From a virus: 57,833 nt of DNA. Both the position numbers and the translations under genes were made by a program. Where the stretch lies: positions 1-57,833 of the IMG/VR virus record IMGVR_UViG_3300033145_000723. The stretch is one strand, 5' to 3'. The notes below the pieces were generated by a model. The model was not told where the DNA came from. It made no database searches and saw only the letters and a list, made by a program, of their open reading frames with translations. Shown one piece after another: positions 20,152 to 40,439 of this stretch (its first letter is position 1; every line of letters starts with the position of its first letter).

Positions 20152-20154
20152 GCC

Positions 20155-20906: not shown

Positions 20907-22441
20907 TTTGTTCCCGCCAATCGTGCTTCCTCTTTCGCTGCATCCTCTTCCTCTCTCTGTAAGCGTTCTTCCTCTGCATCATCATCGTCATCAAGTTCTT
21001 TCTCTCGTACTACTGCAGCTTTACCAATCACATCAATTTCCTCTTGTGTCAATTCCATAAAGAGCTTGAGAAATTCGGCGGGAGGAATGAGAGCATCAAC
21101 TTGACCGGCAACATACTTTGAAAGTGCTTCCGTTCTCTTTGCAGCAACTTCAGCCTTGACGGTATCGGTAACCGTATTCAAATCAACCCATTCTGTTTTG
21201 TAAGTTCCGTCTGCAGGAGCAGGAATGATTTCGAGCACAATCAAACGATCAATGAACGGTCTCAGCACTAACGGCGAAAGGTATTTCGTTTGCCGTCTTG
21301 CTATGCGTTTGTTCCAAGTGATAACATCCTGTCCAGATGCAAGTTTCGCTTCTTCGGTCCCTAGGAAAATGCGATAGGGAATTGAAAGCGTGATGGCAAT
21401 GTAACGCATCTGAGATTCAAGATGGCTCTTCGGATCGGCAACTTGAACATCCAAGCTCTTCACTGAAACGCCAGTTGTGGCAATGTAACGCTGAAGACCA
21501 TTCATCCAGTCTTCCGCTTCATCTCGAATCGCATCGGTGTCAATCTCTGCACCCTCTGCAGCGGCATCAGGATCAACCTCAAAAGAGTACCCTGGAAATG
21601 CACCCTTCCAAAACATCTCACCCGAACCACTCAGCACTTTCCTGATATCCATGAGCCGATTGAACACAGGTTTCATTCTGGGGGTGCCGTAGGTCTCTGA
21701 CATCTTCCGATTGTCGGCAACATGCAACACCCGACTCCAATGCACTTCCAGTTCATTTGATTTGGTTTTGGTGGAGGTCTCTTTCGCGATACCTGAAACC
21801 TGTCCATCTGAAAGAGCTTCCACCGTCTCCTGGAATGTGATCTTGTACATGAGGGGGAGACCGTAACGCGGATTCGCTTGATCTTTCTCGCGCGTTGCAA
21901 TCTCTACCGCCGATTCATCGAACGCGCGAACGTACAAAAGTTTCATGTCTTTGTTTTGCGCTACCTTTTTCATTTCCCCGGTCTCAAGGTTCATCTCTGC
22001 AACTGGTTCGTTTAACTTCCCTCCATCATTCAGACCTAAGAGGAGCACACCGAATTTGCCAATCCCTGACAGTACATCGATTCGGTGGAGGTAGTGGTAA
22101 AGGTTTTTCGATTCCTGTAGCTTTCCCCATCCCTCTTCAAAATCAGTTTCATCCGCTTCTTCATCTTCGTAAACCAACGGATCAACACTCCATGAGTCTT
22201 CAGGCATAACGCCCACGACACGAGAGGCAACACCTTCCCTGTCATACATGTAGGAATACTGCTCCATCTTTATTTCTTTTGGATACCCACACTCAACATC
22301 AATATCGCGGCGGTCATCAAAAATTTTCGTGAGAAGACTACTCCTGACAAGAGAGGCATTCCCCGAAAAGACTTCTCGCATGTTCTCTGCGATTTGCTGA
22401 TTGTGTGTTAATGAATTCTGTGTCAATGTTTCCTTTGGCAT
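20903..22441 (-). CDS. Phage portal protein (DUF1073 type)
   Basis: 512 residues from ATG 22441, which overlaps the upstream stop and follows GGGAGAG. Recognisable portal segments: EQYSYMYDREGVASRVVGVM then PEDSWSVDPLVYEDE near residues ~60-90, KFGVLLLGLNDGG, VHWSRVLHVADN near the middle, and LASGQDVITWNKRIARRQTK with YLSPLVLRPFIDRLI in the C-terminal stem and wing region. It would form the dodecameric ring at one capsid vertex that receives terminase. The C-terminus is acidic (DDDDDAEEERLQREEE). Confidence 0.9.
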   Translation of the reverse strand: MPKETLTQNSLTHNQQIAENMREVFSGNASLVRSSLLTKIFDDRRDIDVECGYPKEIKMEQYSYMYDREGVASRVVGVMPEDSWSVDPLVYEDEEADETDFEEGWGKLQESKNLYHYLHRIDVLSGIGKFGVLLLGLNDGGKLNEPVAEMNLETGEMKKVAQNKDMKLLYVRAFDESAVEIATREKDQANPRYGLPLMYKITFQETVEALSDGQVSGIAKETSTKTKSNELEVHWSRVLHVADNRKMSETYGTPRMKPVFNRLMDIRKVLSGSGEMFWKGAFPGYSFEVDPDAAAEGAEIDTDAIRDEAEDWMNGLQRYIATTGVSVKSLDVQVADPKSHLESQMRYIAITLSIPYRIFLGTEEAKLASGQDVITWNKRIARRQTKYLSPLVLRPFIDRLIVLEIIPAPADGTYKTEWVDLNTVTDTVKAEVAAKRTEALSKYVAGQVDALIPPAEFLKLFMELTQEEIDVIGKAAVVREKELDDDDDAEEERLQREEEDAAKEEARLAGTK

Positions 22442-22758
22442 TACTCTCTCCCTTTTCTTTTTGGTGCAATGTAATCTCTCTCGAAATCCTGTTCCATTAA
22501 ATCCCAATCAACTGCATTGATATCATCTTGCGTGATAGGTGGCATCCACTTGAATTTTTTGAACTCCTTTGCTGTAAATTCGATGTATTCAAGGTGGGTG
22601 AATTGCGTGCGGTTATGGGCCATCTTGAATCTCCTTTCGATGATCGCAAACAATTGGTCTTGTACCTTTTTCATTGCAGCGTAAAAATGACTGGGGTTAG
22701 CAGTAATGCTGCAACGGCAATTCTTATTCAAAGTTCTAAATCCATTCTTTGGCGTCAT
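22441..22758 (-). CDS. Hypothetical protein upstream of the portal gene
   Basis: 105 residues from ATG 22758, which overlaps the upstream stop in ATGA. A second candidate start (ATG 22623, product begins MAHNRTQFTHLEYIEF) has a much better AAGGAG at normal spacing, so a 60-residue form is equally possible. The product is rich in aromatic and charged residues (KEFKKFKWMPPITQDDINAV) and ends basic (PKRKGRE). No family recognised. Confidence 0.5.
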   Translation of the reverse strand: MTPKNGFRTLNKNCRCSITANPSHFYAAMKKVQDQLFAIIERRFKMAHNRTQFTHLEYIEFTAKEFKKFKWMPPITQDDINAVDWDLMEQDFERDYIAPKRKGRE

Positions 22759-22991
22759 TCCTCTTGCCCTCCAAGTTTCTTCGTATCCACCACCTCTAGC
22801 ACAATTCGCTTTCCTTTTCCTCCACCAAACGAAATACTTTTAACGTTTTTATATCTAACAGTTGAATAACATTTTGGACAAACGTGAGTTGCAGCGCACT
22901 CCACCATTTCCTTGTGACCACATTTCCCACAAGTGAAAAGTCCTTCTGGTAACGGTATCTCTTTCTGGGGGTGAAGGTTGATCGCTTTCAT
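22755..22991 (-). CDS. Small zinc-ribbon protein
   Basis: 78 residues from ATG 22991 (a second ATG lies three bases upstream), behind TAGGAG. Residues ~20-45 contain CGKCGHKEMVECAATHVCPKC, a classical two-knuckle zinc ribbon. A Lys/Gly-rich part follows (ISFGGGKGKRIVLEVVDTKK). Such proteins are often DNA- or RNA-binding adaptors. Located between terminase and portal genes, it may help packaging or late gene control, which is inferred. Confidence 0.6.
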   Translation of the reverse strand: MKAINLHPQKEIPLPEGLFTCGKCGHKEMVECAATHVCPKCYSTVRYKNVKSISFGGGKGKRIVLEVVDTKKLGGQEE

Positions 22992-22998
22992 CATTCTC

Positions 22999-23247
22999 CT
23001 ACTCCAAATCCAAATCGTGCCAATCTCTGCACTTGTCGTGATCTTCACGGCTCAAAGTAAATGAATCCGAAAGCCCCTGCATGTATGAGGATACATCCGC
23101 CATCTCGTGACAGATAAAGAGAAAGTGAGTTCCAGGTCTGAAAATACGAAACGCACCTTCCTCTGCAACAAGATCAAACCCTGTTTGCTGAAGCTGCAAT
23201 CGAAGCCGAAGGAACATCTCAACGATTTTTGGTTGCTCAATGCTCAT
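22999..23247 (-). CDS. Hypothetical small protein
   Basis: 82 residues from ATG 23247 behind GGAG. Begins with a helix (IEQPKIVEMFLRLRLQLQQT), then mixed sequence with GAFRIFRPGTHFLFICHEMA and an acidic end (DWHDLDLE). It has no membrane or catalytic signature. Packed between the zinc-ribbon gene and the 38-residue Cys-rich gene in the same direction. Confidence 0.5.
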   Translation of the reverse strand: MSIEQPKIVEMFLRLRLQLQQTGFDLVAEEGAFRIFRPGTHFLFICHEMADVSSYMQGLSDSFTLSREDHDKCRDWHDLDLE

Positions 23248-23288
23248 CATTCTCCTTCCGGGTCTTGACCAACAAGTTCCCTCTTACG

Positions 23289-23405
23289 TCATTTAGGGCA
23301 AACGTATCCGCAAGCTTCCGCAGTATCGCCATTCACTTTCACTTTGCATTTATCGTTTACGCATACCCAAGTTTTAATATAACGAGTTTCTAAGAACGGT
23401 CTCAT
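23289..23405 (-). CDS. 38-residue Cys-rich microprotein coupled to large terminase
   Basis: From ATG 23405 to TGA at 23289. The start overlaps the large terminase stop by four bases (ATGA) and has GGAG before it. The product is basic and has two paired cysteines (WVCVNDKC and ACGYVCPK), fitting a single small zinc-binding knuckle. Coupling to the terminase suggests the two are made in fixed ratio, but the function is unknown. Confidence 0.5.
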   Translation of the reverse strand: MRPFLETRYIKTWVCVNDKCKVKVNGDTAEACGYVCPK

Positions 23406-24889
23406 CTTCTCCTACTCCTCTGCTTTCGAGGTGCGTTGCTCCTCTTCTTCAAACCGCCGATGACTTTACGCTTACCAAAGAGCTTTGCAAATGCTGCACT
23501 ACTCGCATCGATTTGATCTTTGAACTTTGCGAAGGGGAAGAACTGCATTTCGTTTATGTACTCAAGATTCCATGGAGCAATGAGGATGATTACATTCCCA
23601 CCGTTGACTTGAACTGCAAACGGGTCTGCTCTGAAAACCTTATCGCCTCTCGGAAGGTCTGCAACGATTGAGTATCCCGCAAGATTTCGTACCGTGTTCT
23701 GCGCCGATTCTTTTCCACCGCTTCCAGGTTCTTGCTCTACTCCAATTTCAACTTCAGGGCCATCCATCTTAGCTGTGTTCTTGATAATCTTCTCGCGCGT
23801 GAATGCTTCCCATTGTCCACGCACCACATCAAGAATCCAAAACCGTCCTCCTAAATCCCATCCCATTTTTATGCCAACAGTATAGGCACCATCTCCACCC
23901 GTTCCTGCCTTATCCCAAAAGCGTACCACTCGTTTAAACTTTCGTCTAGCGGGTGCTACCTTTTCGTACTGCAGATTCTCCACCTTGAACATACCACCTT
24001 CAAGCGGTACTGGGTTCTGTCCTGCTTGCCCCGCGTATCCAAACTCACCCAAATCAGCACGGAGAGATTTGAGTACAACTCTGTCCAGTCTCACCGGATC
24101 AAGTAGACCATCTTTGTAAAACCTTCTGACATGTCCAGGCTTTACATTGTCAGCCAACTCAGCAGGTAAACAGATATGCCGAATCTTACTTGCCTTTTTC
24201 TCAATCATGTTTCCGGTGGGATCATTCTGATGTAGTCGCTGCATGATTAAAATCGTTGGCGTGACTCGTTTGTTGACCTTTCGAGTTGGTAGTGTTTCAG
24301 ACATCCATGCGTTGACCTTTTTCAAATCTGCTTCCGACTTGGCACCTTGCGGGTCTAACGGATCATCGATGATAATTATATGAGCATGCATCCCAGTGAT
24401 CGTACCGCCAACCCCTACGCACATTCTTGAACCGCCTAGCGTGTTCATGAAGTGCTGCTTGCCAAACTGTTCTGGGGAGAGACGGACTTCAGGAAATGCC
24501 GCGCGGTATTTATCTGAGTTGATAACCTCTCTGGTTCTTCTGCTTAATTCCATCGCAAGGAAAAATGTGTAGCTCCCGCAAATGATTTTGTACTTTGGTT
24601 TAATAGTCCAGACCCACGCGGGAAACATCACGCTACAAATTGTGGACTTGGTTGAACCGGGAGGAACGTTGATAATCACATCATGTTTTTTCGGAAGACC
24701 TGCAAAGACACGTTCAGCAGTTTTTTGTAGTTCGTTACAAATAAATTCGATATGCCAATTCCAAACCGGATCATCTGGAATGATTGTATCCCAAAATTCC
24801 TTGACGAATTCATAGAACGATTCGCGACAAATAGATTGAATCAAATCGTCTTCACTGTAACTAGGTTGCGCTAGAGAGGCATCAACCAA
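23402..24889 (-). CDS. Terminase large subunit (ATPase and nuclease)
   Basis: 495 residues from an unusual TTG start at 24889 (preceded by GAGGGG; the next ATG is near residue 89). ATPase domain: Walker A-like NVPPGSTKST at ~74-83 and Walker B IIIIDDP at ~171-177, followed by MQRLHQNDPTGN. RNase H-like nuclease domain: RFWDKAGTGGDGAYT at ~323-337, GVEQEPGSGGK and FKDQIDASSAAFAKL supply the acidic residues. It packages DNA into proheads through the portal. The C-terminus is strongly basic (KKRSNAPRKQRSRRR). It overlaps the small terminase gene by eight bases. Confidence 0.93.
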   Translation of the reverse strand: MVDASLAQPSYSEDDLIQSICRESFYEFVKEFWDTIIPDDPVWNWHIEFICNELQKTAERVFAGLPKKHDVIINVPPGSTKSTICSVMFPAWVWTIKPKYKIICGSYTFFLAMELSRRTREVINSDKYRAAFPEVRLSPEQFGKQHFMNTLGGSRMCVGVGGTITGMHAHIIIIDDPLDPQGAKSEADLKKVNAWMSETLPTRKVNKRVTPTILIMQRLHQNDPTGNMIEKKASKIRHICLPAELADNVKPGHVRRFYKDGLLDPVRLDRVVLKSLRADLGEFGYAGQAGQNPVPLEGGMFKVENLQYEKVAPARRKFKRVVRFWDKAGTGGDGAYTVGIKMGWDLGGRFWILDVVRGQWEAFTREKIIKNTAKMDGPEVEIGVEQEPGSGGKESAQNTVRNLAGYSIVADLPRGDKVFRADPFAVQVNGGNVIILIAPWNLEYINEMQFFPFAKFKDQIDASSAAFAKLFGKRKVIGGLKKRSNAPRKQRSRRR

Positions 24890-25481
24890 CTTTATCCCCT
24901 CGCATTTTCTTGGAGTCGCGTACTGCCTTGAGTAGTTTCTTGCGAACGTCTAACGGAAGTTCAATATCATCCATGAGAACAATATGCTGAGCCACCATAG
25001 CACGAACATCAATTTCATTCTTCTGAACAGGTCTCCCGTCAATTCGATTCCAAAGATCGGCGGCATGGGTCGAGGAGCCGCGCAAAGTTTGTGCAATCTG
25101 GGCATGAACTACGCAATCAAAAACCGTAGAGGTTGCAGCGTTGATGTTTTCCTTTTCACAATATTGAATCGTCTCTTGAAGTTGGTTCGCTGGCATGCGC
25201 ATAATCTCACGCAAGCGCATGGTCAAACTTTCGACTCGTGGGGTGCGAGCAAAGTCACCACCTTTCCGCATCATCACAGACTTCGGAAGAACTGAGAGCG
25301 GACGTTTTGCAGCGGCATCAATTTCATTCGTTGCCATTACAGCGGCATCAAGTATGTCAACTTCCTTTGGCTTTCCCTTGCCTCTCCTTCTGGGGGGAGA
25401 GGTGGCTTTTGTTGACTTCTTCTTTGCCACTTTTTTCTTGGTGACTTTTTTCTTGGTTGTCTTCTTCTTTTTCTTTATCAT
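24882..25481 (-). CDS. Putative terminase small subunit with lysine-rich N-terminal tag
   Basis: 199 residues from ATG 25481 (ATG 25484 adjacent; an in-frame start at 25574 gives an unlikely N-terminus). Residues ~1-40 are a histone H1-like tract (KKKTTKKKVTKKKVAKKKS). The body is helical: LTMRLREIMRMPANQLQETI, then a segment ending in WNRIDGRPVQKNEIDVRA, a layout common in small terminase-like proteins that recognise packaging sites. It is immediately upstream of the large subunit. The tag matches those on several replication proteins in this window. Confidence 0.65.
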   Translation of the reverse strand: MIKKKKKTTKKKVTKKKVAKKKSTKATSPPRRRGKGKPKEVDILDAAVMATNEIDAAAKRPLSVLPKSVMMRKGGDFARTPRVESLTMRLREIMRMPANQLQETIQYCEKENINAATSTVFDCVVHAQIAQTLRGSSTHAADLWNRIDGRPVQKNEIDVRAMVAQHIVLMDDIELPLDVRKKLLKAVRDSKKMRGDKVG

Positions 25482-25692
25482 CATGCCTCTACCATGGAAT
25501 ACGAAATCTGAATAGCAAACCCTTAATCGGTGCCAGAACAGTATTGTCTCAAACTCCAAAACAACTGAACTCATAATGCCCTATGCCTAGCGTACTATAC
25601 CTATGCGTTGTATTCTTATAATTCTTTTTGTCATAAACCTATGAAACATATAATTACGTATGTCGTTCGTTTATCTCTGGAAAGGGGAAAGT
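25482..25692. promoter_or_regulatory. Divergent intergenic region between packaging and small early genes
   Basis: About 210 bases separate the minus-strand terminase operon from the first plus-strand gene, so at least two outward promoters are expected. On the plus strand TTGTCA (25628-25633) and TATAAT (25649-25654) are spaced by 15 bases, slightly short. A second TATAAT lies at 25617-25622 without a good -35. No clear minus-strand promoter was picked out by eye. Confidence 0.35.
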
Positions 25693-25899
25693 ATGAGTGA
25701 AGAGAATCCTGAATGGTGTCCAACGTGTGCAGAACCAATTGGAAATTTGAGTAGAGATGGCAAGAAGTGTAACAAGTGCGGCGCTATCGGTTGCTACCTT
25801 TGTATGCCAACTCCAAGCACTTGTCAAAACTGTTGGGATGCTGCAGTGTACCGCTACTCGAATGGTATCGTAGGAAAACCGAAAGGAAATGCTCAATGA
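25693..25899 (+). CDS. Small zinc-finger protein
   Basis: 68 residues from ATG 25693, behind GGAAAGGGG. Cysteines are arranged WCPTC, CNKCGAIGCYLC and STCQNCW, eight in all, consistent with two zinc sites (a treble-clef or RING-like small finger). The C-terminal end is Gly/Lys-rich (GIVGKPKGN). First gene of a four-gene plus-strand cluster. Probably nucleic-acid or protein binding, such as an early regulator. Confidence 0.6.
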   Translation: MSEENPEWCPTCAEPIGNLSRDGKKCNKCGAIGCYLCMPTPSTCQNCWDAAVYRYSNGIVGKPKGNAQ

Positions 25900-26129
25900 G
25901 TAAAGTCAGTCAAATTCGTTTGCGAATCCTAGCGCACTACCAAGAAGTTTTGTTCCGTCTCTGGTACAAGGTAGAGCTAGGCTTTTACGATAGCCGCTCC
26001 GAAATCGGTGACCTGGCCCTCGAAATGCGCGACACCTATTACAAACACGAAAGCATATTCAATGTTGAGTATGGTGCATGGAGAGAGCAGGAAATAGCAA
26101 AGAAAGGAAAAGCAAATGGTGGAACCTGA
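25896..26129 (+). CDS. Hypothetical helical protein
   Basis: 77 residues. ATG overlaps the preceding stop by four bases, so it is probably translationally coupled. Helical and amphipathic (VSQIRLRILAHYQEVLFRLW, EIGDLALEMRDTYYKHES), ending basic (AKKGKANGGT). No motif recognised. Part of the small plus-strand operon 25693-26578. Confidence 0.55.
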   Translation: MSKVSQIRLRILAHYQEVLFRLWYKVELGFYDSRSEIGDLALEMRDTYYKHESIFNVEYGAWREQEIAKKGKANGGT

Positions 26130-26355
26130 ACAGTATAACGATGCACGAAAGATATCAGCAGGACTCACTGAATATGACAGGAGGAAAAAGATAGTGGATA
26201 AGACAAAGCGAACAACAATTCAACTCTCTGCATTATTCCTTGCGGGTGCTATCAGTGAAATGTCTGAGTATATGCAGGACGTAACTACAGCCGACATATT
26301 CCTTGAGGCACTAATCAAAGGCTTAGAGAAAGAAAGGAAAGACCGCTATGCCTAA
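26116..26355 (+). CDS. Hypothetical helical protein
   Basis: 79 residues, start overlapped with the previous gene by 14 bases and preceded by GGAAAAG. Charged N-terminus (DARKISAGLTEYDRRKKI), then a helix with a hydrophobic face (TIQLSALFLAGAISEMSEYM), then LEALIKGLEKERKDR. No family recognised. Overlaps the next gene by eight bases. Confidence 0.55.
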   Translation: MVEPEQYNDARKISAGLTEYDRRKKIVDKTKRTTIQLSALFLAGAISEMSEYMQDVTTADIFLEALIKGLEKERKDRYA

Positions 26356-26578
26356 ACGATCAAAGAAGCAGGACAAACTTGGAGTCAGAGCACATACAAA
26401 AAAGGGTTGCAAGCATTTGTTCATCCCGAATATCTCAGAGGAAACTAAACGCCGGTTTAAATCTGCCTGTAGTGTGGCAGGGCATTCCATGACGCATGTC
26501 ATCACATCTTTCATGGTTAAGTATTCTGACCTCCAACTCATTCCCGGTAAAGGTGAACAGGAAGGAGAGGAACCATAG
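26348..26578 (+). CDS. Putative ribbon-helix-helix DNA-binding protein
   Basis: 76 residues, last gene of the small operon. After a basic arm (KRSKKQDKLGVRAHTKKG) comes KHLFIPNISEETKRRFKSAC, then SVAGHSMTHVITSFMVKYS. A strand followed by two helices with a G-x-S/T between them is the ribbon-helix-helix (Arc/MetJ/CopG) plan. Such proteins usually repress their own or neighbouring promoters. Confidence is moderate because the fold is inferred from pattern only. Confidence 0.55.
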   Translation: MPKRSKKQDKLGVRAHTKKGCKHLFIPNISEETKRRFKSACSVAGHSMTHVITSFMVKYSDLQLIPGKGEQEGEEP

Positions 26579-26694
26579 AAGCGCACAAGTATCATTCGTT
26601 CAATCGGTGCAACTTATGCTAACAAATATCATCGATGCTCTTCGATGTTATCTGTTCTACGTGATGCAACGCGATGCTCTCTCTTGTATTTCAA

Positions 26695-26717
26695 AACGCC
26701 CTGCTCTACCCCCCAAT
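26695..26717 (+). repeat. Direct repeat copy 1 with CCCCCCAAT
   Basis: AACGCCCTG followed by CTCTA and CCCCCCAAT. The same sequence with small differences recurs at 26841-26864. An inverted TATTGGGGGG lies between them at 26792-26801 and can pair with CCCCCCAATA of this copy across about 73 bases. Repeated G/C runs in a non-coding region suggest a protein-binding site, an origin iteron-like element or a structured transcript end. Confidence 0.7.
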
Positions 26718-26791
26718 AGGGTGTCTTATCTTACTCTCTTTACTACTTTATAGAATATAGAATATAGGTTATGCATAAGTAAGAGTATCTA

Positions 26792-26802
26792 TATTGGGGG
26801 GG
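26792..26802. repeat. Inverted copy (TATTG plus seven G) of the CCCCCCAAT element
   Basis: TATTGGGGGG is the exact reverse complement of CCCCCCAATA at 26709-26718, and its ATTGGGGGG part matches CCCCCCAAT of the second direct repeat as well. The element could therefore switch partners between the upstream and downstream copies. An AT-rich spacer with TATAGAATATAGAATATAGG lies between it and copy 1. Confidence 0.65.
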
Positions 26803-26840
26803 TGGAACCGGTCGTTTTCAAATACAAGTAGCGAGACAGA

Positions 26841-26864
26841 AACGCCCTGTTCTTGCCCCCCAAT
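26841..26864 (+). repeat. Direct repeat copy 2 with CCCCCCAAT
   Basis: AACGCCCTG, TTCTTG, CCCCCCAAT: near-copy of 26695-26717. It is followed within 40 bases by two copies of CCTGGGCGCA (26884-26904) and by the terminator-like hairpin. Confidence 0.7.
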
Positions 26865-26923
26865 GAAAAGGGGAATCGTGCTACCTGGGCGCACCCTGGG
26901 CGCAATTGTACTAAGGGGGTCCG

Positions 26924-26956
26924 AGGGGGGTCAAGACCGGAAACCCCCTATTTTTC
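26924..26956 (+). terminator. Intrinsic terminator-like hairpin after the small operon
   Basis: AGGGGG (26924-26929) can pair with CCCCCT (26944-26949), followed at once by ATTTTT. It lies about 350 bases after the last small plus-strand gene and before the next candidate promoter, so it could separate the two transcription units. The loop is long (14 bases), so strength is uncertain. Confidence 0.45.
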
Positions 26957-27109
26957 GGGTCTTTTCTCCCTCTCTTGTACGATTACTAAAATAATCGAAC
27001 GAATAATAACGCCTGTAACATAGGGCTTTCGTAACGACTTGCAAGACCGTCTCCACAACTCCTTTAATACCAGTCGGTTAAAATCCTCAGAATCTTTCAG
27101 AGAATTATC

Positions 27110-27137
27110 TTGCTATCGGTCGAGAATCGGCTATTAT
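27110..27137 (+). promoter_or_regulatory. Candidate sigma-70 promoter for the 27719 operon
   Basis: TTGCTA (27110-27115) and TATTAT (27132-27137) are separated by 16 bases. They match four and five of six consensus positions. A start near 27144 would leave a leader of about 575 bases before the first gene. The TTAATGTATTAA palindrome at 27141-27152 overlaps the predicted start site and could be an operator. Confidence 0.4.
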
Positions 27138-27194
27138 TGTTAATGTATTAAACGTTCATTGACAACCGGGTTTGGAACGCAGGAGGGCGGCAAA

Positions 27195-27223
27195 GCCAAA
27201 CAACCCCCATGAGAGGGTGAGGC
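27195..27223 (+). ncRNA. Structured RNA element, copy 1
   Basis: Stem 1 GCC/GGC, linker AAACA, stem 2 ACCC/GGGT, loop CCATGAGA, then GA. The same layout recurs at 27432-27465 with different but still complementary stem bases, so the structure rather than the sequence seems conserved. No gene follows this copy directly. Confidence 0.5.
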
Positions 27224-27431
27224 GTTGCAGTCATCTGCCAGACAAACTTTTATCTGCCTATGGTAAGACGAGAGAATTTCCAACCTCTCAACCAGTTACC
27301 TTGAATGGCTGCAAGCGAACCGCAGAGCGTTCGCAAAAATGGCTTTGGTCCTACGCCTAGCTTAACAGCAAAGACCGCCTATCTAAAATTCTGCACGAAA
27401 GCACTAACGAGAATTCAGTCAAACTTATCTG

Positions 27432-27465
27432 CCACCAAATAACTCCCTCTGAGAGAGTGAGGTGG
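27432..27465 (+). ncRNA. Structured RNA element, copy 2
   Basis: Stem 1 CCACC/GGTGG, linker AAATA, stem 2 ACTC/GAGT, loop CCTCTGAGA, then GA. Compared with copy 1 the linker, the TGAGA end of the loop and the GA are shared, while stem bases differ in a compensated way (ACCC/GGGT versus ACTC/GAGT). Located inside the long leader upstream of 27719. Confidence 0.5.
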
Positions 27466-27694
27466 TAATTCCTACAAACAGATAACGCAAGCGAAACTGT
27501 CACTTGCAAGACTGAATGAAACTCTATGACTTTCTGTTATCGTGAGGGACCGGGAACGGAGATCAGAACTCGGATAGGAATTTCGTTGAATCGAAACGCA
27601 CAAAATCGAACGCGCAAATCAAAAATAGATTCGGTTCGTGAGTGCGTCTCAGGAATTGGCAACCCTGACTGAAGAGATGCCAAACGGAAGTTAG

Positions 27695-27711
27695 TTCAGA
27701 ACCACAGGGAG
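27695..27711 (+). promoter_or_regulatory. Repeated leader motif with ribosome binding site, copy 1
   Basis: TTCAGAACCACAGGGAG directly before the gene at 27719. Related sequences precede the next three genes: TTCAGAAGCACAAAGGAG (27930-27947), TACAGAACCATAGAGGAG (28370-28387) and TTCAGAAACCCAAAGGAG (29045-29062). The constant CAGAA-box upstream of the Shine-Dalgarno suggests an extended ribosome or regulator contact. Confidence 0.6.
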
Positions 27712-27718
27712 ATGGAAA

Positions 27719-27889
27719 ATGGCAAAGAAAACAAAGAAACAAATACAAAAGCTTTGGGCTAAACAGGAAAAGGCATGGACAAAGTGGCGTGAGCAATTTA
27801 CTGAATTTGAAAAAGAACACCTTCGTGATTTAATTATCCGGGAGCATCATCAGGATATGACAAAGATTTACGATGAAAGAATCGGTTGA
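27719..27889 (+). CDS. 56-residue basic helical protein
   Basis: From ATG 27719 (behind GGGAG in the repeated leader) to TGA 27889. The product is helical, rich in Lys, Trp, Glu and His (KKTKKQIQKLWAKQEKAW, FTEFEKEHLRDLIIREHH). No family recognised. First gene after the long structured leader. Its short lysine-rich start is reminiscent of the tags on other proteins here. Confidence 0.6.
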   Translation: MAKKTKKQIQKLWAKQEKAWTKWREQFTEFEKEHLRDLIIREHHQDMTKIYDERIG

Positions 27890-27900
27890 AAACTTCACCC

Positions 27901-27914
27901 CACTCATTCGAGTG
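27901..27914 (+). ncRNA. Structured RNA element, copy 3 (hairpin before 27955)
   Basis: CACTC and GAGTG close a four-base ATTC loop, followed by AGG that can pair with upstream CC. It shares stem 2 (ACTC/GAGT) and the following GAGG with copy 2. It lies 12 bases after the preceding stop codon and 30 bases before the repeated ribosome-binding leader of the next gene. Confidence 0.5.
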
Positions 27915-27954
27915 AGGCTCTGCAGTTAATTCAGAAGCACAAAGGAGAAAGACC

Positions 27955-28308
27955 ATGTTCGTATCAAACGTATCGATGCAAGACATGCGCACCGCACTCG
28001 GCAACCTCGAAAGAAAGTACGGCGGGAACATTTTGTTTGCGAAGATCGAACAGAAATCAAAAGTCAGAATTCAGTTCACTCTGAAAGTTGACTGCGCGAG
28101 TGGACATGGTTCAGCGCGTTCGCGCTCTGGACGCAAAACTGGTTCGGCTTGCTGGCATGCTCATGGTCATTTCTTTGATGCTCTGATGAAAGTCAATACG
28201 CATGCAATCGTCACCACTCGCGACACGCAAAAGATTTCGATCTACGGTGGTAACTGGCAAGACAACAACAATATGAAAAGTCTCTGCGAGTGTGAAGCGA
28301 AGAACTAA
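27955..28308 (+). CDS. Hypothetical early protein
   Basis: 117 residues with AAAGGAG before the start. A helical start (QDMRTALGNLERKYGGNILF) is followed by beta-like sequence with many Ser/Gly/His (VDCASGHGSARSRS, CWHAHGHFFDAL), then the motif SIYGGNWQDNNNMKSLCECE. I have an impression that the GNLERKYG start and the GNWQDNN ending occur in phage proteins of unknown function, but I cannot name the family. Confidence 0.6.
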   Translation: MFVSNVSMQDMRTALGNLERKYGGNILFAKIEQKSKVRIQFTLKVDCASGHGSARSRSGRKTGSACWHAHGHFFDALMKVNTHAIVTTRDTQKISIYGGNWQDNNNMKSLCECEAKN

Positions 28309-28332
28309 TTCAAATCCAAAAAGCGAAAACGC

Positions 28333-28361
28333 AACCCTCCACCCATTCGGGTGGGGGTTTT
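28333..28361 (+). terminator. Strong hairpin with TTTT (RNA element copy 4)
   Basis: AACCC-CCACCC pairs with GGGTGG-GGG-TT around an ATTC loop with a single bulged T, eleven pairs in all, followed by further Ts. It can act as an intrinsic terminator after 27955-28308, or as an attenuator, and shares its ATTC loop and stem plan with copy 3. The leader motif of the next gene follows nine bases later. Confidence 0.55.
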
Positions 28362-28393
28362 GAAGTTGATACAGAACCATAGAGGAGAATCAA

Positions 28394-29023
28394 ATGCCTA
28401 AGCTCAGAAAGAAAAGCACACGCAAGTCAACATACAATCTCATTTGCACTCTGGAAGATATGGAAAATCGTTTGACCGAAAATGCCAAGCATGACGTTTT
28501 GGATTACGTCAAGCAACTTCAGAAGATCGTGAACGGGAGACGGAAGAAAGATATTACTCTGCGTCTCTGCAAAGCGCAAGACCGCCGCGCATACCTTCGG
28601 CTGAACGTTGGCGAAACTTATTTGAATGTCATCGTGGATACTTACGGCTACTCCTACTATGGAATTGGTTTTGGATCAAGCGAAACTGAAAAGCCCCGCA
28701 CGATCATCAGCGCAGTCCTACGCAAAGCCAAGAAAGAGCAAGCGAAGAGAGACAAAAATGCAAAGATGATCGCGGATGCAAAAGCGCGTACCGAAAAACA
28801 TCTGCTCCCCATCAAGAAACTAATGGAGATGCTTGTTCCAGGTGTCACGATCAAAGAATCATTCTCAGAGCGTTATGCAGAAATTACTGTATCGAAAAAG
28901 ATGAAGAACGGAAAGCTTGTTGAAGCTGAGATCAGTGTCAACTCGAAAGATGAACTTCAGATTCAATTGGACGCGCCAAACATCAGCGCGAATGAATTGA
29001 TCGCAATCTTTTCGGTCCTCTAG
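28394..29023 (+). CDS. Hypothetical early protein
   Basis: 209 residues, preceded by the repeated leader and GAGGAG. Basic N-terminus (KLRKKSTRKSTY), helical region with ENRLTENAKHDVLDYVKQLQ, a beta part around LNVIVDTYGYSYYGIGFG, a Lys-rich helix (RKAKKEQAKRDKNAKMIADA), and a C-terminal beta/alpha part with AEITVSKKMKNG. No catalytic motif. Possibly nucleic-acid associated by charge, function unknown. Confidence 0.6.
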   Translation: MPKLRKKSTRKSTYNLICTLEDMENRLTENAKHDVLDYVKQLQKIVNGRRKKDITLRLCKAQDRRAYLRLNVGETYLNVIVDTYGYSYYGIGFGSSETEKPRTIISAVLRKAKKEQAKRDKNAKMIADAKARTEKHLLPIKKLMEMLVPGVTIKESFSERYAEITVSKKMKNGKLVEAEISVNSKDELQIQLDAPNISANELIAIFSVL

Positions 29024-29069
29024 TCAGAACCCTTTTGCAACTCATTCAGAAACCCAAAGGAGATGAATC

Positions 29070-29297
29070 ATGGCAGCAAAGAAAAAGACTCTAAGCCAAA
29101 GACTCGCAGCAGAGATCAAACGTAATCCCATGCTTGCAGGATTTGTTGCACACGCGATTGTAGCTGAAGCAGATCGTGTAGCGAATGCATCTGAAGAGGC
29201 AAAGAAACAATTCGACAAGGGTCTTGTAACTTACGATTACTGGAACTCCCTTGGACAAGTTTGTAAAGGGATCGTGGGAGATAGCAGAGGAGAGTAG
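29070..29297 (+). CDS. Small basic early protein
   Basis: 75 residues, start in the fourth repeated leader (AAAGGAG). Begins MAAKKKTLSQRLAAEIKRNP, followed by an alanine-rich helix (GFVAHAIVAEADRVANAS) and ends DSRGE. No family recognised. Nearest in style to small regulatory or anti-host proteins of early operons. Confidence 0.6.
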   Translation: MAAKKKTLSQRLAAEIKRNPMLAGFVAHAIVAEADRVANASEEAKKQFDKGLVTYDYWNSLGQVCKGIVGDSRGE

Positions 29298-29301
29298 AAA
29301 G

Positions 29302-29547
29302 ATGGTTCAGTCAACTTACGTCAAGCAAGAATACCTGGACACGGCAACCGATATCCATAAGCTGAATGATTTATTCCTGGAAGGTCTTGCGAACCACGAG
29401 AAAGGAGCAGAGGAAAACCGCTATCACTTTAGCTATGCTTTCACTCTCGAACTCGTTCGCGATGCTCTCCGCGTCTGTGTCAAATGGCTCCTGACCATCA
29501 CCGACAAAGAATTGAATACCGTCCTTGAAAGGAATCGTCAAGAATAG
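29302..29547 (+). CDS. Hypothetical early protein
   Basis: 81 residues from ATG 29302, directly behind GGAGAGTAG, five bases after the preceding stop. Helical with conserved-looking FLEGLANHEKGAEENRYHFS and FTLELVRDALRVCVKWLL. No membrane anchor despite a hydrophobic helix. Ends basic (VLERNRQE). Unknown. Confidence 0.55.
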   Translation: MVQSTYVKQEYLDTATDIHKLNDLFLEGLANHEKGAEENRYHFSYAFTLELVRDALRVCVKWLLTITDKELNTVLERNRQE

Positions 29548-29603
29548 TGAGACCGGTTGTAACCGCTCTCGTTTTGAACCTGGATCAGAAAGGAATTCGC
29601 ACG

Positions 29604-30128
29604 ATGAAAATGTTCAGCGTACTAGACCCGCTAAAGGAAGCGCACGAAGTAGCTTTGGAAATGGCGAGAGCCACTGGTGGCTCTATGTTTTTTGTTGAAT
29701 CCATTAACGATGACAAAGTTGTTATCCGTGATGAATTCAGTGAAATGCTAACAACCTTTTGCAGAAAGCCTGACACACGAACGATCTTCGAAAAGGCTGA
29801 TGAAAGTTTCAAAGCACTCGTGAAGGACACAAGTTTTGAAGCGGTCTTAGTTGCTGCTTTGGAACATGCGAAAGGACAGGCGGTTGCTGCTGGCATCGGC
29901 TTTGTCGAATCGCAACCCCATTCCCAGATCGAACAGATGTATGAAGATGATGAACAACAATGGAAGAACATCTCAATTCTTTTAGATAACGCGAGACAGG
30001 AAATCCCAGTAAGACCCATTGGAGAGGAAAGCGAAAAACCTACTGCAGAAGATATGGTCGAGGAAGATGAAAGGGAAACTGATGGCAACGAAGAAGAAAA
30101 AGGTTTGGAAGTTCCTTCGGGCGGGTGA
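29604..30128 (+). CDS. Hypothetical early protein, acidic C-terminus
   Basis: 174 residues from ATG 29604, preceded by a degenerate leader GATCAGAAAGGA (an in-frame start upstream lacks a ribosome binding site). N-terminal alpha/beta part (FSVLDPLKEAHEVALEMARA), a central helix (SFEAVLVAALEHAKGQAVAA) and a Glu/Asp-rich tail (EEDERETDGNEEEKGLE). The 3' end overlaps the next gene by 47 bases. No family recognised. Confidence 0.55.
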   Translation: MKMFSVLDPLKEAHEVALEMARATGGSMFFVESINDDKVVIRDEFSEMLTTFCRKPDTRTIFEKADESFKALVKDTSFEAVLVAALEHAKGQAVAAGIGFVESQPHSQIEQMYEDDEQQWKNISILLDNARQEIPVRPIGEESEKPTAEDMVEEDERETDGNEEEKGLEVPSGG

Positions 30129-30348
30129 CCGTTTCAAGAATGTTCGTTCGAGACTTGTTTACCTTCTGGCAGTGATCCGATGCCAAGAACATGTCGAAGA
30201 GGTTGTCTTAATCTGCATGCAAACTGGCAACCGATTCTACATGCCTTATTGGGTGCGGGACTCAAAGACAATCACCGAAAAAGAATGGGAGATGGTTACA
30301 GATGGAATGGCTCACATCTTCAAGCACCTCCCACGGAAAGGGGAATGA
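30082..30348 (+). CDS. Small basic protein
   Basis: 88 residues from ATG 30082, which lies inside the acidic tail of the preceding gene in another frame. Starts MATKKKKVWKFLRAGDRFKN, then a hydrophobic strand (RLVYLLAVIRCQ) and VVLICMQTGNRFYMPYWV. It looks like a small SH3- or Tudor-like beta protein with a basic lead. Function unknown. Confidence 0.5.
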   Translation: MATKKKKVWKFLRAGDRFKNVRSRLVYLLAVIRCQEHVEEVVLICMQTGNRFYMPYWVRDSKTITEKEWEMVTDGMAHIFKHLPRKGE

Positions 30349-30572
30349 TGTTCAAGCTCTCTCGCCTTGAACAGATTGCATGTATTGTTTCTGCTATCTT
30401 TATTGCTTTGCTTATCATCTTTGATACTCCAGATGAAGAAAGTATTGCCCTGAAGAAAACGCATCAACTCCAAAGACAAAAGAAGCATTTGCAACTCGAA
30501 GTTGAAATTCAGGAACTACAAAAACGAAAGGAAAGTAATGAGCAAGAAGAAAAGAAAGATCAAGCGCAGTGA
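30345..30572 (+). CDS. Small membrane protein with coiled coil
   Basis: 75 residues, tandem ATG overlapping the preceding stop in ATGATG. One transmembrane helix (IACIVSAIFIALLIIF) is followed by a charged coiled coil (KKTHQLQRQKKHLQLEVEIQ). Typical single-pass phage inner-membrane protein with cytoplasmic or periplasmic helix. Function unknown. Confidence 0.6.
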   Translation: MMFKLSRLEQIACIVSAIFIALLIIFDTPDEESIALKKTHQLQRQKKHLQLEVEIQELQKRKESNEQEEKKDQAQ

Positions 30573-30801
30573 TTTGTTCATCAGTAAAGTTGATGGAGAG
30601 CTTTATATGATGACCGCCGAAAGTTACGGACACCGTGCGCGTCTCGTTTGTTTGAATGATGGTGAATTCTGGGGTGCTGGTGTAAACGTCAAAGATATCT
30701 TCGATATCTCCCAGAAAGAATTCCACGGCATCACCGTAGGCAGTGAAAAATCCTTCATGCGAGTTAGCAAGCACAAAAGCTTAGTCCTAACAAAAGACTG
30801 A
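30538..30801 (+). CDS. Small basic beta-rich protein
   Basis: 87 residues from ATG 30538, behind GAAAGGAAAG, within the coiled coil of the preceding gene. Basic lead MSKKKRKIKRSDLFISKVDG, then HRARLVCLNDGEFWGAGVNV and KDIFDISQKEFHGITVG. The pattern suggests a small SH3-like domain. No family recognised. Confidence 0.55.
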   Translation: MSKKKRKIKRSDLFISKVDGELYMMTAESYGHRARLVCLNDGEFWGAGVNVKDIFDISQKEFHGITVGSEKSFMRVSKHKSLVLTKD

Positions 30802-30805
30802 ATTG

Positions 30806-30901
30806 CAAAACCTCGCTCACGGCATTCCCGGACTCAGAAATTTCCGTCCCGTCAAAGAAGCGAAAACCTCACACCCTTCCGAACCCGTGAGCTTGGTTTT
30901 G
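30806..30901 (+). ncRNA. Long-range stem element in a 255-base gap
   Basis: CAAAACC (30806-30812) and GCTCACGG (30815-30822) are complementary to GGTTTTG (30895-30901) and CCGTGAGC (30885-30892), giving fifteen pairs with one 2x2 internal loop and a 62-base enclosed region. TTTTG and TTATT follow. There is no gene here, so a terminator, attenuator or small structured RNA is likely. Confidence 0.6.
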
Positions 30902-31056
30902 TTATTCACCCACAACGGATACGTTGTCAAAGGAGAGAACTATGTAACCTTTGGACTAAAGCCCAGAACGTTGCTCTCGCGTTGACGAGCGGAGAGAGTA
31001 GCGTTGTGTGTTTTGTCTTTGCAGTTTTTGCAGCATCACGAAAGGGAGGAAGAGTT

Positions 31057-31266
31057 ATGGTCACGAAGATGAAAACGGTTACGCATAATGGTACGAGCTA
31101 CGGTTTGGAAGTCATCGGAGACAAGAAGAGCCATTACAAGTATCGTACACCAGACGGCAAGAAACATCGAAGCGAAGTTGGTGCGGTGAGGCACATCGAA
31201 GAAAAGAAAATGGCAACATCCATGCTCAACCTCGAAAAAAGATGGGGTGTCACCCTGAGTGCCTGA
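31057..31266 (+). CDS. Small early protein
   Basis: 69 residues from ATG 31057, behind GGGAGG. Beta-like start (VTHNGTSYGLEVIGDKKSHY), then KYRTPDGKKHRSEVGAVRHI, and a helical basic end. No family recognised. First gene after the structured gap at 30802-31056. Confidence 0.5.
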   Translation: MVTKMKTVTHNGTSYGLEVIGDKKSHYKYRTPDGKKHRSEVGAVRHIEEKKMATSMLNLEKRWGVTLSA

Positions 31267-31280
31267 AGGAGAAAGGATCA

Positions 31281-31652
31281 ATGTTATACAACGGGGAGTA
31301 CAAAGTAATTGACACAGAGGGAAGGGAAAAGATTTTCACTATCAAACTCCAACCAAGCGATTCAACCTTCGCTCCTGGCATGAGAGTTGTTTCTGCCATT
31401 ACACAGAGAGGAGCACGAAAGTATGTAAATGGTTTTGCTTTCCTCTCTGGGAGCGATGACCCGCGAGTTGATCTATGGAGACGAAAGGACAACGAGCAGT
31501 ACAGACGGTATGCAAGACTCTTGGAGTCTATCGGGAGAATGGATATCCGAGAGGGTCAACCGAATTCAATTGCTGCCATGGACGGTATGCAATTCATTGT
31601 GAACGTCACTGAAAAGAAAGACAAAACAAATGGCAAAGAAAACTGTAGTTAA
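31281..31652 (+). CDS. Hypothetical protein
   Basis: 123 residues from ATG 31281 behind GGAGAAAGG. Beta-rich N-terminal half (YNGEYKVIDTEGREKIFTIK), a G-R-x-Y turn (GARKYVNGFAFLSG), a basic helix (RRKDNEQYRRYARLLESIG) and a strand near the end (MQFIVNVTEKKD). Overlaps the next gene by 23 bases. Not recognised. Confidence 0.5.
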   Translation: MLYNGEYKVIDTEGREKIFTIKLQPSDSTFAPGMRVVSAITQRGARKYVNGFAFLSGSDDPRVDLWRRKDNEQYRRYARLLESIGRMDIREGQPNSIAAMDGMQFIVNVTEKKDKTNGKENCS

Positions 31653-31923
31653 GGTTACAAAGATTCCATTATTCTATGAGGGCAAGAGTGATGTACTTCT
31701 GAAGCTGAAGAGCACCGAATTTCCCCAGACTGCAGCGGGTCAGAATGCGTACTGCGATTACATGATTCTGAAATGGTCCAAAAAGAAAAGTGGAGTCGCT
31801 GAAAAGTTTGATCCGAAGGCAAAGGAAAAGGGCAAACTCCAGCGGCGGTTGGAACGCATGAAGGCAAAGCAGGAAGAGCTTGAAGCAGAACTCGAGGAGA
31901 TGGGGGATGGCTCAGAGGAATAG
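31630..31923 (+). CDS. Small protein with basic lead and coiled coil
   Basis: 97 residues. Begins MAKKTVVKVTKIPLFYEGKS, then DYMILKWSKKKSGVAEKFDP and a C-terminal coiled coil (KLQRRLERMKAKQEELEAEL) ending acidic. The basic start resembles the shared lysine tag but lacks the full KKFxVKK motif. Function unknown. Overlapped on both sides. Confidence 0.5.
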   Translation: MAKKTVVKVTKIPLFYEGKSDVLLKLKSTEFPQTAAGQNAYCDYMILKWSKKKSGVAEKFDPKAKEKGKLQRRLERMKAKQEELEAELEEMGDGSEE

Positions 31924-32185
31924 GCACAAGAGACGCTTGCATGATCTTGAGCAAGAATTGATTCTAATACCAAACCTGTTAGAGCAAGCGGCGAAGCATT
32001 TAACTCATTTGGATAAGAGGTTGAGAGAACTTCCAGATGAAATTGACATGGCAAAAATGCTAGTGGACTTTCATTCAAAGGGCAAGACGGTCAACATGAC
32101 AAAGAAAAAACTAGCTGCATTGCGTAAACAAATCGCCGCTACGAAAAAGCGTATCATGGAACTCATGCGGGAGGGAGATTTATGA
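31907..32185 (+). CDS. Coiled-coil protein
   Basis: 92 residues from ATG 31907, with GAGGAG upstream. Almost entirely helical, charged (RLHDLEQELILIPNLLEQAA, then KKLAALRKQIAATKKRIMEL), as in small phage structural or scaffolding-like coiled coils. Overlaps the next gene by four bases. Not recognised. Confidence 0.55.
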   Translation: MAQRNRHKRRLHDLEQELILIPNLLEQAAKHLTHLDKRLRELPDEIDMAKMLVDFHSKGKTVNMTKKKLAALRKQIAATKKRIMELMREGDL

Positions 32186-32421
32186 AGTTTATCAAACTGG
32201 TGTCAAAGAGCAGAGCGACAACTGTCCTCTTCGTGAACCCTGAAACGATTACGCATATTGAGGGGTATGATGAAGGCACTTGCGTTTACACTTCAGACGG
32301 TTTTTTCACAAAGGTGGAAGATGCTCCTGAAACCGTTAAGCGTATGGCAGAGAACGCAACGAGTGACGTTGAAATTATGGATGTAGAAACGTTAAAAGAA
32401 CGAGTGAGGCAAAATGGCTAA
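32182..32421 (+). CDS. Small beta-alpha protein
   Basis: 79 residues. Starts KFIKLVSKSRATTVLFVNPE, then a strand region (ITHIEGYDEGTCVYTSDGFF) and an acidic helix (APETVKRMAENATSDVEIM). The layout resembles small phage proteins with LytTR- or PH-like mini domains (a short beta sheet followed by a helix), but nothing is specific. Overlaps the tagged gene by eight bases. Confidence 0.5.
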   Translation: MKFIKLVSKSRATTVLFVNPETITHIEGYDEGTCVYTSDGFFTKVEDAPETVKRMAENATSDVEIMDVETLKERVRQNG

Positions 32422-33280
32422 GAAGAAATTCAAAGTCGCAAAGAAAAAGTTCCAGGTAAAAAAGAACAAGAAGTTCGTGGTGAAGAAAAAGAAGTTCCAA
32501 GTGAAAAAGAATAACGCGCACCCGATTCCAATTGTTCCATTCCCCCCTGCAGAATTCAATTCAATCCTGATGGAGTCTGCGAAGCATTTCGGGTGGAGGT
32601 GCTTTTCACTTCGAACGCAAACGCGAAGTGGAGTTAGAGCAGAGAAACGATTTGTAATGGAGGAGTATGAAAGGTTCTTTGGTGAACCGCCTCCAGAAAA
32701 AATGCGTTGGCGTTTAGTCAAGACAAGAATCATCACCCATTGTCAATATCTCTTGGCTAGGCAAGATGGAAAGGAGAACGAACTCAAAGAGAAGTTTTGG
32801 AAAAGCTACTTTGCGGCATGGGGTCGCAAAGCAGAGAAGAATGATGTGCGGGATTTTGATGAACTTTCGAGATTTTTGTTTAACGTACTGGAGGAAAGTG
32901 ACATGGCGAAAAAGTCGAGCAAGAAAAAGGTTTCCAAGAAGGTCGCGAAGAAACAGTTGATCGTGAAGAAGAAGGTAGCCAAGAAAGCCACAAAGAAAAC
33001 CACAAAGAAAGTGGCGAAGAAGAAGACAACGAAAAAGGTTGCCAAGAAAAAGTCATCGAAAAAGGGCAACATCAGAACTCCCGCCGGTAGTCCTTTCAAG
33101 AAGGGCACCGCTGCTGGAATCGCGTGGGAGATTATCAAGCAGCAAAAGGCAAAGGGCAAAAAGGGTGACAAGATCAAAGAGATTCTTGATGCCGCGAGTG
33201 AATCAGGAAAGCTCCCTGCCCAGAATGGCAGTCGTTACTATGACTACATCATTGCGAAGTGCCCGAAGCTCAAGAGCTAG
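32414..33280 (+). CDS. Lysine-rich DNA-binding-type protein with quadruple KKFxVKK tag
   Basis: 288 residues. Residues 1-34 contain four variants of the motif KKF-x-V-K/A-K. Residues ~35-160 form a helical, folded middle (SILMESAKHFGWRCFSLRTQ, RWRLVKTRIITHCQYLLA). Residues ~164-216 are a second, histone H1-like tract (KKVAKKATKKTTKKVAKKKT). The C-terminal ~70 residues (TAAGIAWEIIKQQKAKGKKG, KIKEILDAASESGKLP) look like a small helical DNA-binding domain. A good internal start (ATG 32903 behind GGAGG) could give a 125-residue short form. It is followed by a strong terminator. Role inferred: genome compaction or replication scaffold. Confidence 0.7.
   Translation: MAKKKFKVAKKKFQVKKNKKFVVKKKKFQVKKNNAHPIPIVPFPPAEFNSILMESAKHFGWRCFSLRTQTRSGVRAEKRFVMEEYERFFGEPPPEKMRWRLVKTRIITHCQYLLARQDGKENELKEKFWKSYFAAWGRKAEKNDVRDFDELSRFLFNVLEESDMAKKSSKKKVSKKVAKKQLIVKKKVAKKATKKTTKKVAKKKTTKKVAKKKSSKKGNIRTPAGSPFKKGTAAGIAWEIIKQQKAKGKKGDKIKEILDAASESGKLPAQNGSRYYDYIIAKCPKLKS
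32903..33280 (+). CDS. Possible internal-start short form: histone H1-like protein plus C-terminal domain
   Basis: In frame within the preceding entry. ATG 32903 is preceded by GGAGGAAAGTGAC, a stronger ribosome binding site than most in this region. The 125-residue product would be a lysine tract plus the helical C-terminal domain, with composition like phage or bacterial histone H1 homologues. Whether the long form, the short form or both are made cannot be told from sequence. Confidence 0.4.
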   Translation: MAKKSSKKKVSKKVAKKQLIVKKKVAKKATKKTTKKVAKKKTTKKVAKKKSSKKGNIRTPAGSPFKKGTAAGIAWEIIKQQKAKGKKGDKIKEILDAASESGKLPAQNGSRYYDYIIAKCPKLKS

Positions 33281-33299
33281 AACAAGCGCACAATCTGAG

Positions 33300-33333
33300 G
33301 GGGTCTGGGGAGCTTTTCTCCAGACCCCTTTTT
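33300..33333 (+). terminator. Strong intrinsic terminator after the early gene block
   Basis: GGGGTCTGG (33300-33308) pairs with CCAGACCCC (33320-33328) with a short loop, followed by TTTTT at 33329-33333. It closes the 27719-33280 transcription unit. A second unit begins at the ParB-like gene about 140 bases later. Confidence 0.85.
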
Positions 33334-33471
33334 GCGTTGGCATATGTCCTCTCAGGAGCTTACATCGCCTCAGTCAGACCGATTTCCCGCCTCTGTGAGC
33401 GACTTTGATCAGAATCCCCGGTAACGAGACCCGCAAGCGGTTCCAAGACCGCCAGAAGGAGAGCAGGAGCC

Positions 33472-34182
33472 ATGGCACAACGGAAAAAGAAGTTCAAGGT
33501 AACGAAAAGGAAAACGGTTGTCAAAAAGAAACCGAAGAGCTTGAAAGAGCGACTAATCGAAATGAAGTTATCCTCTCTCAATTTCCATCCAAAGAATCCG
33601 CGAGACCACGATGAAGGAAATCTCAAGGATATCATGGAGAGCTATGAAAACTTTGGAGAGATGCAACCGGTTGTCGTTTGGGGAATGAAAAATTATGTCA
33701 TTGTTGGTAACGGTAGGCTAGAAGCTGCAACCCGCCTTGGTTTGAAAGTTCTTTCTATAGTTCGTGCGGATCATCTTACAAAAGATGAAGCCGAATCATA
33801 CATGATCGCAGATAACAAATCGAGTGATTCCAGTAAGTTCAATAAGGAATTGCTTGCTGATATGTTCCAAGGTCTTCATGGACGTGGAGCAGATTTATCT
33901 CAGACGGGTTTCAGCCGGTTTGAAATTGAACCGCTGATTACTCCTGATGATGGAAACCATGATTTTTCACAGTTCGAAGATGAGATTGAAAAACTCTCTG
34001 GGGAGGACAGAGTTATAATCGGCGTGGAGGTTCAAGTGAAATTTGTGGAGCGAGTCACTGAGTGGCTTGCAAATGGGGAAAAGAAAACGGCATCCGGTTT
34101 AGGAAAAGGAGTAATGAAAAGATGCGGATTGCGCTCATCGAAGTCAAAAGTAAAGGTGAACTCTTCCCGATCCAGTTCCTAA
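33472..34182 (+). CDS. ParB-like nuclease-domain protein with lysine-rich N-terminal tag
   Basis: 236 residues. Residues 1-26 are the basic tag (RKKKFKVTKRKTVVKKKP). The ParB/Srx core follows: LNFHPKNPRDHDEGNLKDIM, MQPVVVWGMKN, then IVGNGRLEAATRLGLKVL, where GNGR-x3-A is the typical nucleotide-binding signature, and LTKDEAESYMIADNKSSDSS. Phage ParB-like proteins act as CTP/DNA-dependent regulators or as partners in DNA modification. The 3' end overlaps the radical SAM gene by 61 bases, so expression is probably coupled. Confidence 0.85.
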   Translation: MAQRKKKFKVTKRKTVVKKKPKSLKERLIEMKLSSLNFHPKNPRDHDEGNLKDIMESYENFGEMQPVVVWGMKNYVIVGNGRLEAATRLGLKVLSIVRADHLTKDEAESYMIADNKSSDSSKFNKELLADMFQGLHGRGADLSQTGFSRFEIEPLITPDDGNHDFSQFEDEIEKLSGEDRVIIGVEVQVKFVERVTEWLANGEKKTASGLGKGVMKRCGLRSSKSKVKVNSSRSSS

Positions 34183-40424: not shown

Positions 40425-40439
40425 CAGGAGAAAGTAACA

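Follow-up and report, generated by a model that had tools for sequence, protein, structure and literature searches.

Two matched hairpins in the noncoding control region of a 57.8-kb phage genome are candidate leader RNA elements

The window, meaning the whole stretch of DNA analysed here, is the virus record IMGVR_UViG_3300033145_000723 of IMG/VR (positions 1–57,833; 57.8 kb). Its head and packaging genes (terminase, portal and head morphogenesis) occupy the minus strand up to about 25.6 kb, and from about 25.7 kb the plus strand carries small early genes followed by genes for ParB-like, radical SAM, helicase, Sak4-like, PolA-type polymerase and primase proteins, the labels "early" and "late" being inferred from gene content. 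A comparison of positions 20000–36000 with 50,697 phage records gave no near DNA match; the nearest terminases in them are about 39% identical, and a PolA search of the genome collection returned only relatives at 27–29%. A tRNA search of the window found none. The features discussed below lie at and just beyond the divergence of the late and early genes; element A denotes the hairpin present as copies 1 and 2, and repeat B a second, weaker repeat.

26580–27718, plus strand: noncoding control region, containing the largest inter-ORF gap of the window, at the late (minus)/early (plus) divergence
About 27143–27718, plus strand: presumed leader of the first early gene, the right part of the control region
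27178–27237, plus strand: long hairpin topped by copy 1, GCAGG..GGC.GCAA.GCC / GGC.TTGC.GTC..TCTGC, from the MFE fold
27190–27228, plus strand: element A copy 1 (27195–27223 in the preliminary description), from direct reading, the MFE fold and the repeat with copy 2
27239–27258, plus strand: repeat B copy 1, CAGACAAACTTTTATCTGCC, directly after element A copy 1
27411–27518, plus strand: three-helix domain carrying copy 2, from the fold and inverted repeats
27416–27433, plus strand: repeat B copy 2, CAGTCAAACTTATCTGCC, directly before element A copy 2
27429–27467, plus strand: element A copy 2 (27432–27465 in the preliminary description), from direct reading and the MFE fold
27901–27914, plus strand: copy 3 of the preliminary description, a small hairpin CACTC-ATTC-GAGTG between early genes, outside element A
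28333–28361, plus strand: copy 4 of the preliminary description, a hairpin AACCC.CCACCC-ATTC-GGGTGG.GGGTT between early genes followed by a short T run, outside element A

The control region includes the largest stretch of the window that is free of ORFs of at least 75 codons (809 nt; the next largest is 197 nt), and next on its right come early genes with starts at 27719, 27955, 28394 and 29070. Copies 1 and 2 share the strand of the first small early genes and lie in the 575 nt of noncoding sequence immediately upstream of them. A weak sigma70-like match is present at 27110–27137; promoter-like sites in the control region are no commoner than chance, and none is convincing. The leader (~590 nt) folds with a z-score of −2.64 against 100 shuffles (−4.38 in a run with only 30 shuffles), and since 589-nt windows elsewhere in the phage (mean z −0.47, sd 1.34) reach −3.0, it is only somewhat, not uniquely, structured. 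By our estimate, long inverted repeats in the leader are about as numerous as chance predicts. Folding is about equally good on the two strands and therefore cannot tell them apart; the plus strand is preferred from gene direction only. We infer that the leader is transcribed and that its plus strand is the active one. Further to the left, positions 26683–26864 hold three related blocks of ~24 nt (AAACGCCCTG.TCT..CCCCCCAAT type), one of them inverted relative to the other two. The outer blocks make arms of 32 nt that are 84% complementary and enclose 82 nt of AT-rich DNA; the arrangement looks origin-like or terminator-like.

The preliminary description had placed four hairpins in this part of the genome, and reading the DNA at its coordinates confirmed all of them (GCCAAACAACCCCCATGAGAGGGTGAGGC, CCACCAAATAACTCCCTCTGAGAGAGTGAGGTGG, CACTCATTCGAGTG and AACCCTCCACCCATTCGGGTGGGGGTTTT for copies 1 to 4). 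Copy 1 consists of an outer stem GCAA.GCC/GGC.TTGC, an internal loop AAACA/GA, an inner stem ACCC/GGGT and a loop CCATGAGA; the corresponding parts of copy 2 are TGCCACC/GGTGGTA, AAATA/GA, ACTC/GAGT and CCTCTGAGA. The two align as CCAAAYAACYCCC..TGAGAGRGTGAGG with one gap, and both the AAAYA linker and the loop end TGAGA, correctly described as common to them, are kept in the alignment. Conservation is concentrated in the loops and the inner stem; most of the letters that vary are paired. Because the loops are kept and the stem letters drift with pairing, copies 1 and 2 look more like a single strand that folds than like a binding site in double-stranded DNA.

Several comparisons with chance bear on this pair, all made on two sequences and on a feature picked after reading. 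The best gapped self-alignment within 27130–27718 is that of copies 1 and 2, with a score of 16 that was reached in 6 of 2000 dinucleotide shuffles, and their common fold (−10.65 kcal/mol) was matched by the top-ranked repeat pair in one of the 2000. Among the six bases outside each core, five pair in both copies though the letters differ, which happens at 3% of random places per copy and, if the copies are independent, in both with a probability of about 0.001. The stated structure pairs 95.5% of cells, compared with 26–44% when the 3′ strand is slid by 1–3 columns. The claim that stem bases change together thus stands for copies 1 and 2, where three outer-stem pairs have changed on both sides with pairing kept; it fails beyond the pair. 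By direct reading, the inner-stem change from ACCC/GGGT to ACTC/GAGT is a fourth compensated change, uncounted owing to the alignment gap. In a column-shuffle control the observed covariation was reached in 67 of 500 trials; such a control is weak with two sequences. Copies 1 and 2 are a genuine structured pair, beyond chance, in that both copies, their common predicted fold and their place are established; as leader RNA elements they are a modest candidate from a single genome.

Copies 3 and 4 do not belong with them. R1, a covariance model trained on copies 1 and 2, was run over the whole window with filters off; these two, being its own training set, scored 53.2 and 50.8 bits, the next best site being elsewhere at 15.1 bits. 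Neither copy 3 nor copy 4 was returned at E up to 10, which removes the idea of one family of four hairpins. The inner stem ACYC/GRGT, reported as the common feature, is indeed present in all four copies but does not serve as a family mark, as it occurs 26 times on the plus strand of the window with a loop of 3–12 nt. The description of copies 3 and 4 as sharing an ATTC loop and lying between genes was accurate; their common hairpin, CACYC-ATTC-GRGTG, is found in the window only at these two places, each shortly before a repeated leader GTTNATTCAGAANC..AGGAGA. Copy 4 folds strongly (−22.2 kcal/mol, z −3.6, equalled by none of 200 shuffles) and may be a weak terminator: it resembles intrinsic terminators in its G+C-rich stem followed by TTTT and differs from them in the shortness of the T run (28358–28361), which is partly paired in the stem. 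A terminator scan did not list it.

Each copy of element A sits within a larger fold. The long hairpin topped by copy 1 is the MFE fold of 74 nt and is by itself unexceptional (z −1.7). Copy 2 is carried by a domain with a closing helix ATTCAGTC/GACTGAAT, a TTATCTG/CAGATAA helix that copy 2 tops, and a GCAAG/CTTGC hairpin; positions 27405–27525, with boundaries picked afterwards, fold at −31.7 kcal/mol (z −4.17), and none of 200 shuffles was as good. The TTATCTG of this helix belongs to repeat B copy 2 and pairs with CAGATAA at 27479–27485. Repeat B, with the consensus CAGWCAAACTT(TT)ATCTGCC, is the second-best repeat of the leader and lies in mirrored order relative to element A (A1-B1...B2-A2); its score of 12, set against an average of about 11 for the best repeat of shuffled leaders, is not significant alone. 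TTATCTG occurs four times in the control region on both strands (Poisson p 1e-5, uncorrected for ~1000 7-mers tested). A switch of copy 1 through the long-range pairings CAAAGCCA/TGGCTTTG and TGAGAGGGTG/CAACCTCTCA was rejected, as repeats that long are expected by chance.

The pair corresponds to no named RNA family, as had been stated: Rfam gave no match at the gathering threshold over the window or at E up to 5 over 26300–29100. The further copies whose search had been proposed as a check were not found in the window, in Rfam, in two pattern scans of IMG/VR or in about 140 loci, and by the criterion set beforehand this outcome speaks against the proposed interpretation. DNA comparison with phages and plasmids gave no match, the strict IMG/VR pattern CCAAANAACNC..GAGANNGTGAGG returned none, and a looser pattern with the inner stem free returned 41 places, none with a 4-bp inner stem, which we attribute to chance. 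Relatives were collected by terminase (L002–L005 and L063–L139, the alignment bringing 80 loci, about 50 of them with 45–58% identity), by helicase (eight loci, L012–L019) and by the early protein encoded at 27955–28308 (L061 at 46% and L062 at 35%). Searches of all three sets with blastn, nhmmer and R1 revealed no leader homologue; R1 gave no match at E up to 1 when run on 42 complete records from the terminase set and 14 further ones, and none at E below 0.1 in the relatives' loci. No terminase relative has homologues of the small early genes adjoining the leader. The collections may omit records very near the window, so that the absence of close relatives is uninformative.

Control regions of other relatives often hold unrelated repeats of their own. 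Upstream of the early gene shared with the window, L061 has a noncoding stretch with repeated TTATCCACAG boxes, DnaA-box-like in look, and L062 has at 4837–5136, noncoding and between divergent genes, about ten iteron-like repeats of 26 nt, TAGCAAGGNCCGTGCCAGG. The shared gene itself defines a family with a CWHAHGHFF motif in three otherwise dissimilar phages (27955–28308 in the window, L061:5986–6363 and L062:6001–6465), and the window's member has no Pfam match. The search with the neighbouring protein at 28394–29023 found no relative. A member of the terminase set, L097, carries 1.6 kb without ORFs of 75 codons (309–1917), with tandem TTTGGCTTATACATTTGATTGC repeats.

How the pair might act admits several explanations. 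Copies 1 and 2 could be hairpins in single-stranded DNA, or binding repeats, for initiator, primase or packaging proteins at a replication origin, with no role as RNA. We consider this fairly unlikely but a serious rival, given the position and the repeats that relatives carry there. The cumulative GC skew does reach its minimum at 25–27 kb, G/C-run inverted repeats lie nearby at 26683–26864, and the iteron-like and DnaA-box-like repeats of L062 and L061 occupy the same place. However, the skew minimum coincides with the turn from minus- to plus-strand genes and so is no origin mark by itself, two copies 240 nt apart make no iteron array, and the hairpins are weak as DNA (−6 to −8.5 kcal/mol); moreover, a double-stranded site would be expected to keep its stem letters, whereas here it is the loops that are kept. 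A relic of a short duplication, or a lucky match, would need no present function at all, and would agree with the missing conservation in relatives, with the unrelated repeats that related phages often carry in their control regions, and with the rate of about one in 300 leaders of like composition that would give such a repeat, given that 58 kb had been scanned in preparing the preliminary description. Against it, repeat and common fold together arise in only about one in 2000, and decay after duplication would not preserve pairing in two differing outer stems. We regard this account as unlikely.

Quite unlikely, in our assessment, is that both elements are helices of a single noncoding RNA, large (about 0.5 kb) and structured, that is transcribed separately or as a leader and acts as a whole in the manner of the ornate phage RNAs. 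The noncoding stretch of about 590 nt with its z-score of −2.64, the three-helix domain around copy 2 and the mirrored, weaker repeat B would all accommodate it, and ROOL, whose env-120 member measures 659 nt, is present in phages (PMC12286853). The likeness to ROOL and GOLLD extends to a long noncoding structured stretch in a phage; these RNAs often adjoin tRNA islands (PMC12286853), whereas the window has no tRNA, and no Rfam family, ROOL and GOLLD included, matches 26300–29100 even at E up to 5. By our estimate long inverted repeats occur in the leader at about the chance rate, and there is no homologue on which the whole fold could be judged.

The reading that we favour, tentatively and as somewhat short of probable, places a pair of cis-acting RNA elements, copies 1 and 2, in the early-operon leader; antitermination or another leader function is their presumed role. 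A conserved RNA structure in the early leader had been proposed for all four hairpins; copies 1 and 2 are best read in this way, copies 3 and 4 do not fit it, and the protein-binding site or attenuator suggested along with it may apply to the pair. A structured repeat beyond chance, conserved loops, the place before early genes on the same strand, the leader z-score and the strongly folded domain of copy 2 argue for it. It is weakened by the searches that found no homologue, by there being only two copies, by the want of a convincing promoter, by the presence of both copies on one strand, unlike putL and putR, and by a minus strand that folds about as well. In each element an asymmetric internal loop, AAAYA/GA, would interrupt the helix, and the loop at its tip would end in UGAGA. 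Since unpaired letters stay constant and the outer stem drifts with pairing, the loops of the folded RNA may be read by a protein or the transcription complex. Placed at the start of the early operon, the elements would bind a phage or host protein or RNA polymerase, and binding would control early transcription (by antitermination, compare lambda nut and HK022 put) or transcript stability. A read-through element would have a target here, as the terminator-like hairpin at 28333–28361 lies within the early gene cluster.

A precedent comes from phage HK022, in which putL and putR, two RNAs of ~70 nt, lie downstream of the early promoters and are reported to act on RNA polymerase with no dedicated protein factor (PMC9378689). 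The likeness is that early phage transcripts carry two structured RNA elements related to each other; the put RNAs differ in having two stem-loops and one copy per early operon, compared with single hairpins of ~40 nt on one strand in the window. A put RNA by sequence was ruled out, as R1 found nothing significant in the HK022 early region (24000–36000, assumed to span both unannotated put sites; best score 10.6 bits, E 0.46). A further hallmark of put RNA is that it suppresses termination by way of the zinc-binding domain of the RNA polymerase beta' subunit. The lambda nut site comprises box A and box B, a short hairpin in early leaders that is read through its loop. Element A is likewise a short hairpin in an early leader, and by inspection the window differs in having no recognised box A, N-type gene or purine pentaloop. 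The asymmetric internal loop, AAA plus YA opposite GA with one possible A-G pair, recalls a kink-turn, whose consensus is a three-nucleotide bulge followed by tandem sheared G-A pairs. This candidate was discarded by inspection, because the first pair, normally G-A, would be C-A or U-A in each copy.

To our knowledge, few RNA elements controlling early transcription in phages have been described outside the lambdoid group. Least probable among the proposals made here is that the pair is the first of a new class of phage leader RNAs, which would modify RNA polymerase or bind a phage protein, in a lineage without a known RNA of this kind; a member of the class would be a hairpin of ~40 nt, with AAAYA/GA as internal loop and UGAGA as loop, used twice by a single early leader. 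Compact, duplicated and with a defined signature in its loops, the hairpin is a concrete motif to look for and lends itself to an easy mutational test.

A similar untranslated start GTTNATTCAGAANCNCARRGGAGA precedes four early genes (27690–27718, 27921–27957, 28361–28397 and 29036–29072), the first and third being less alike, and is possibly a duplicated translation-start module. Several proteins encoded at 39399–41624 and by other plus-strand genes have long lysine-rich tracts of KKKVAKKKVAKKK type at their start or end, and the product of 40440–41624 is SSB-like with long acidic runs.
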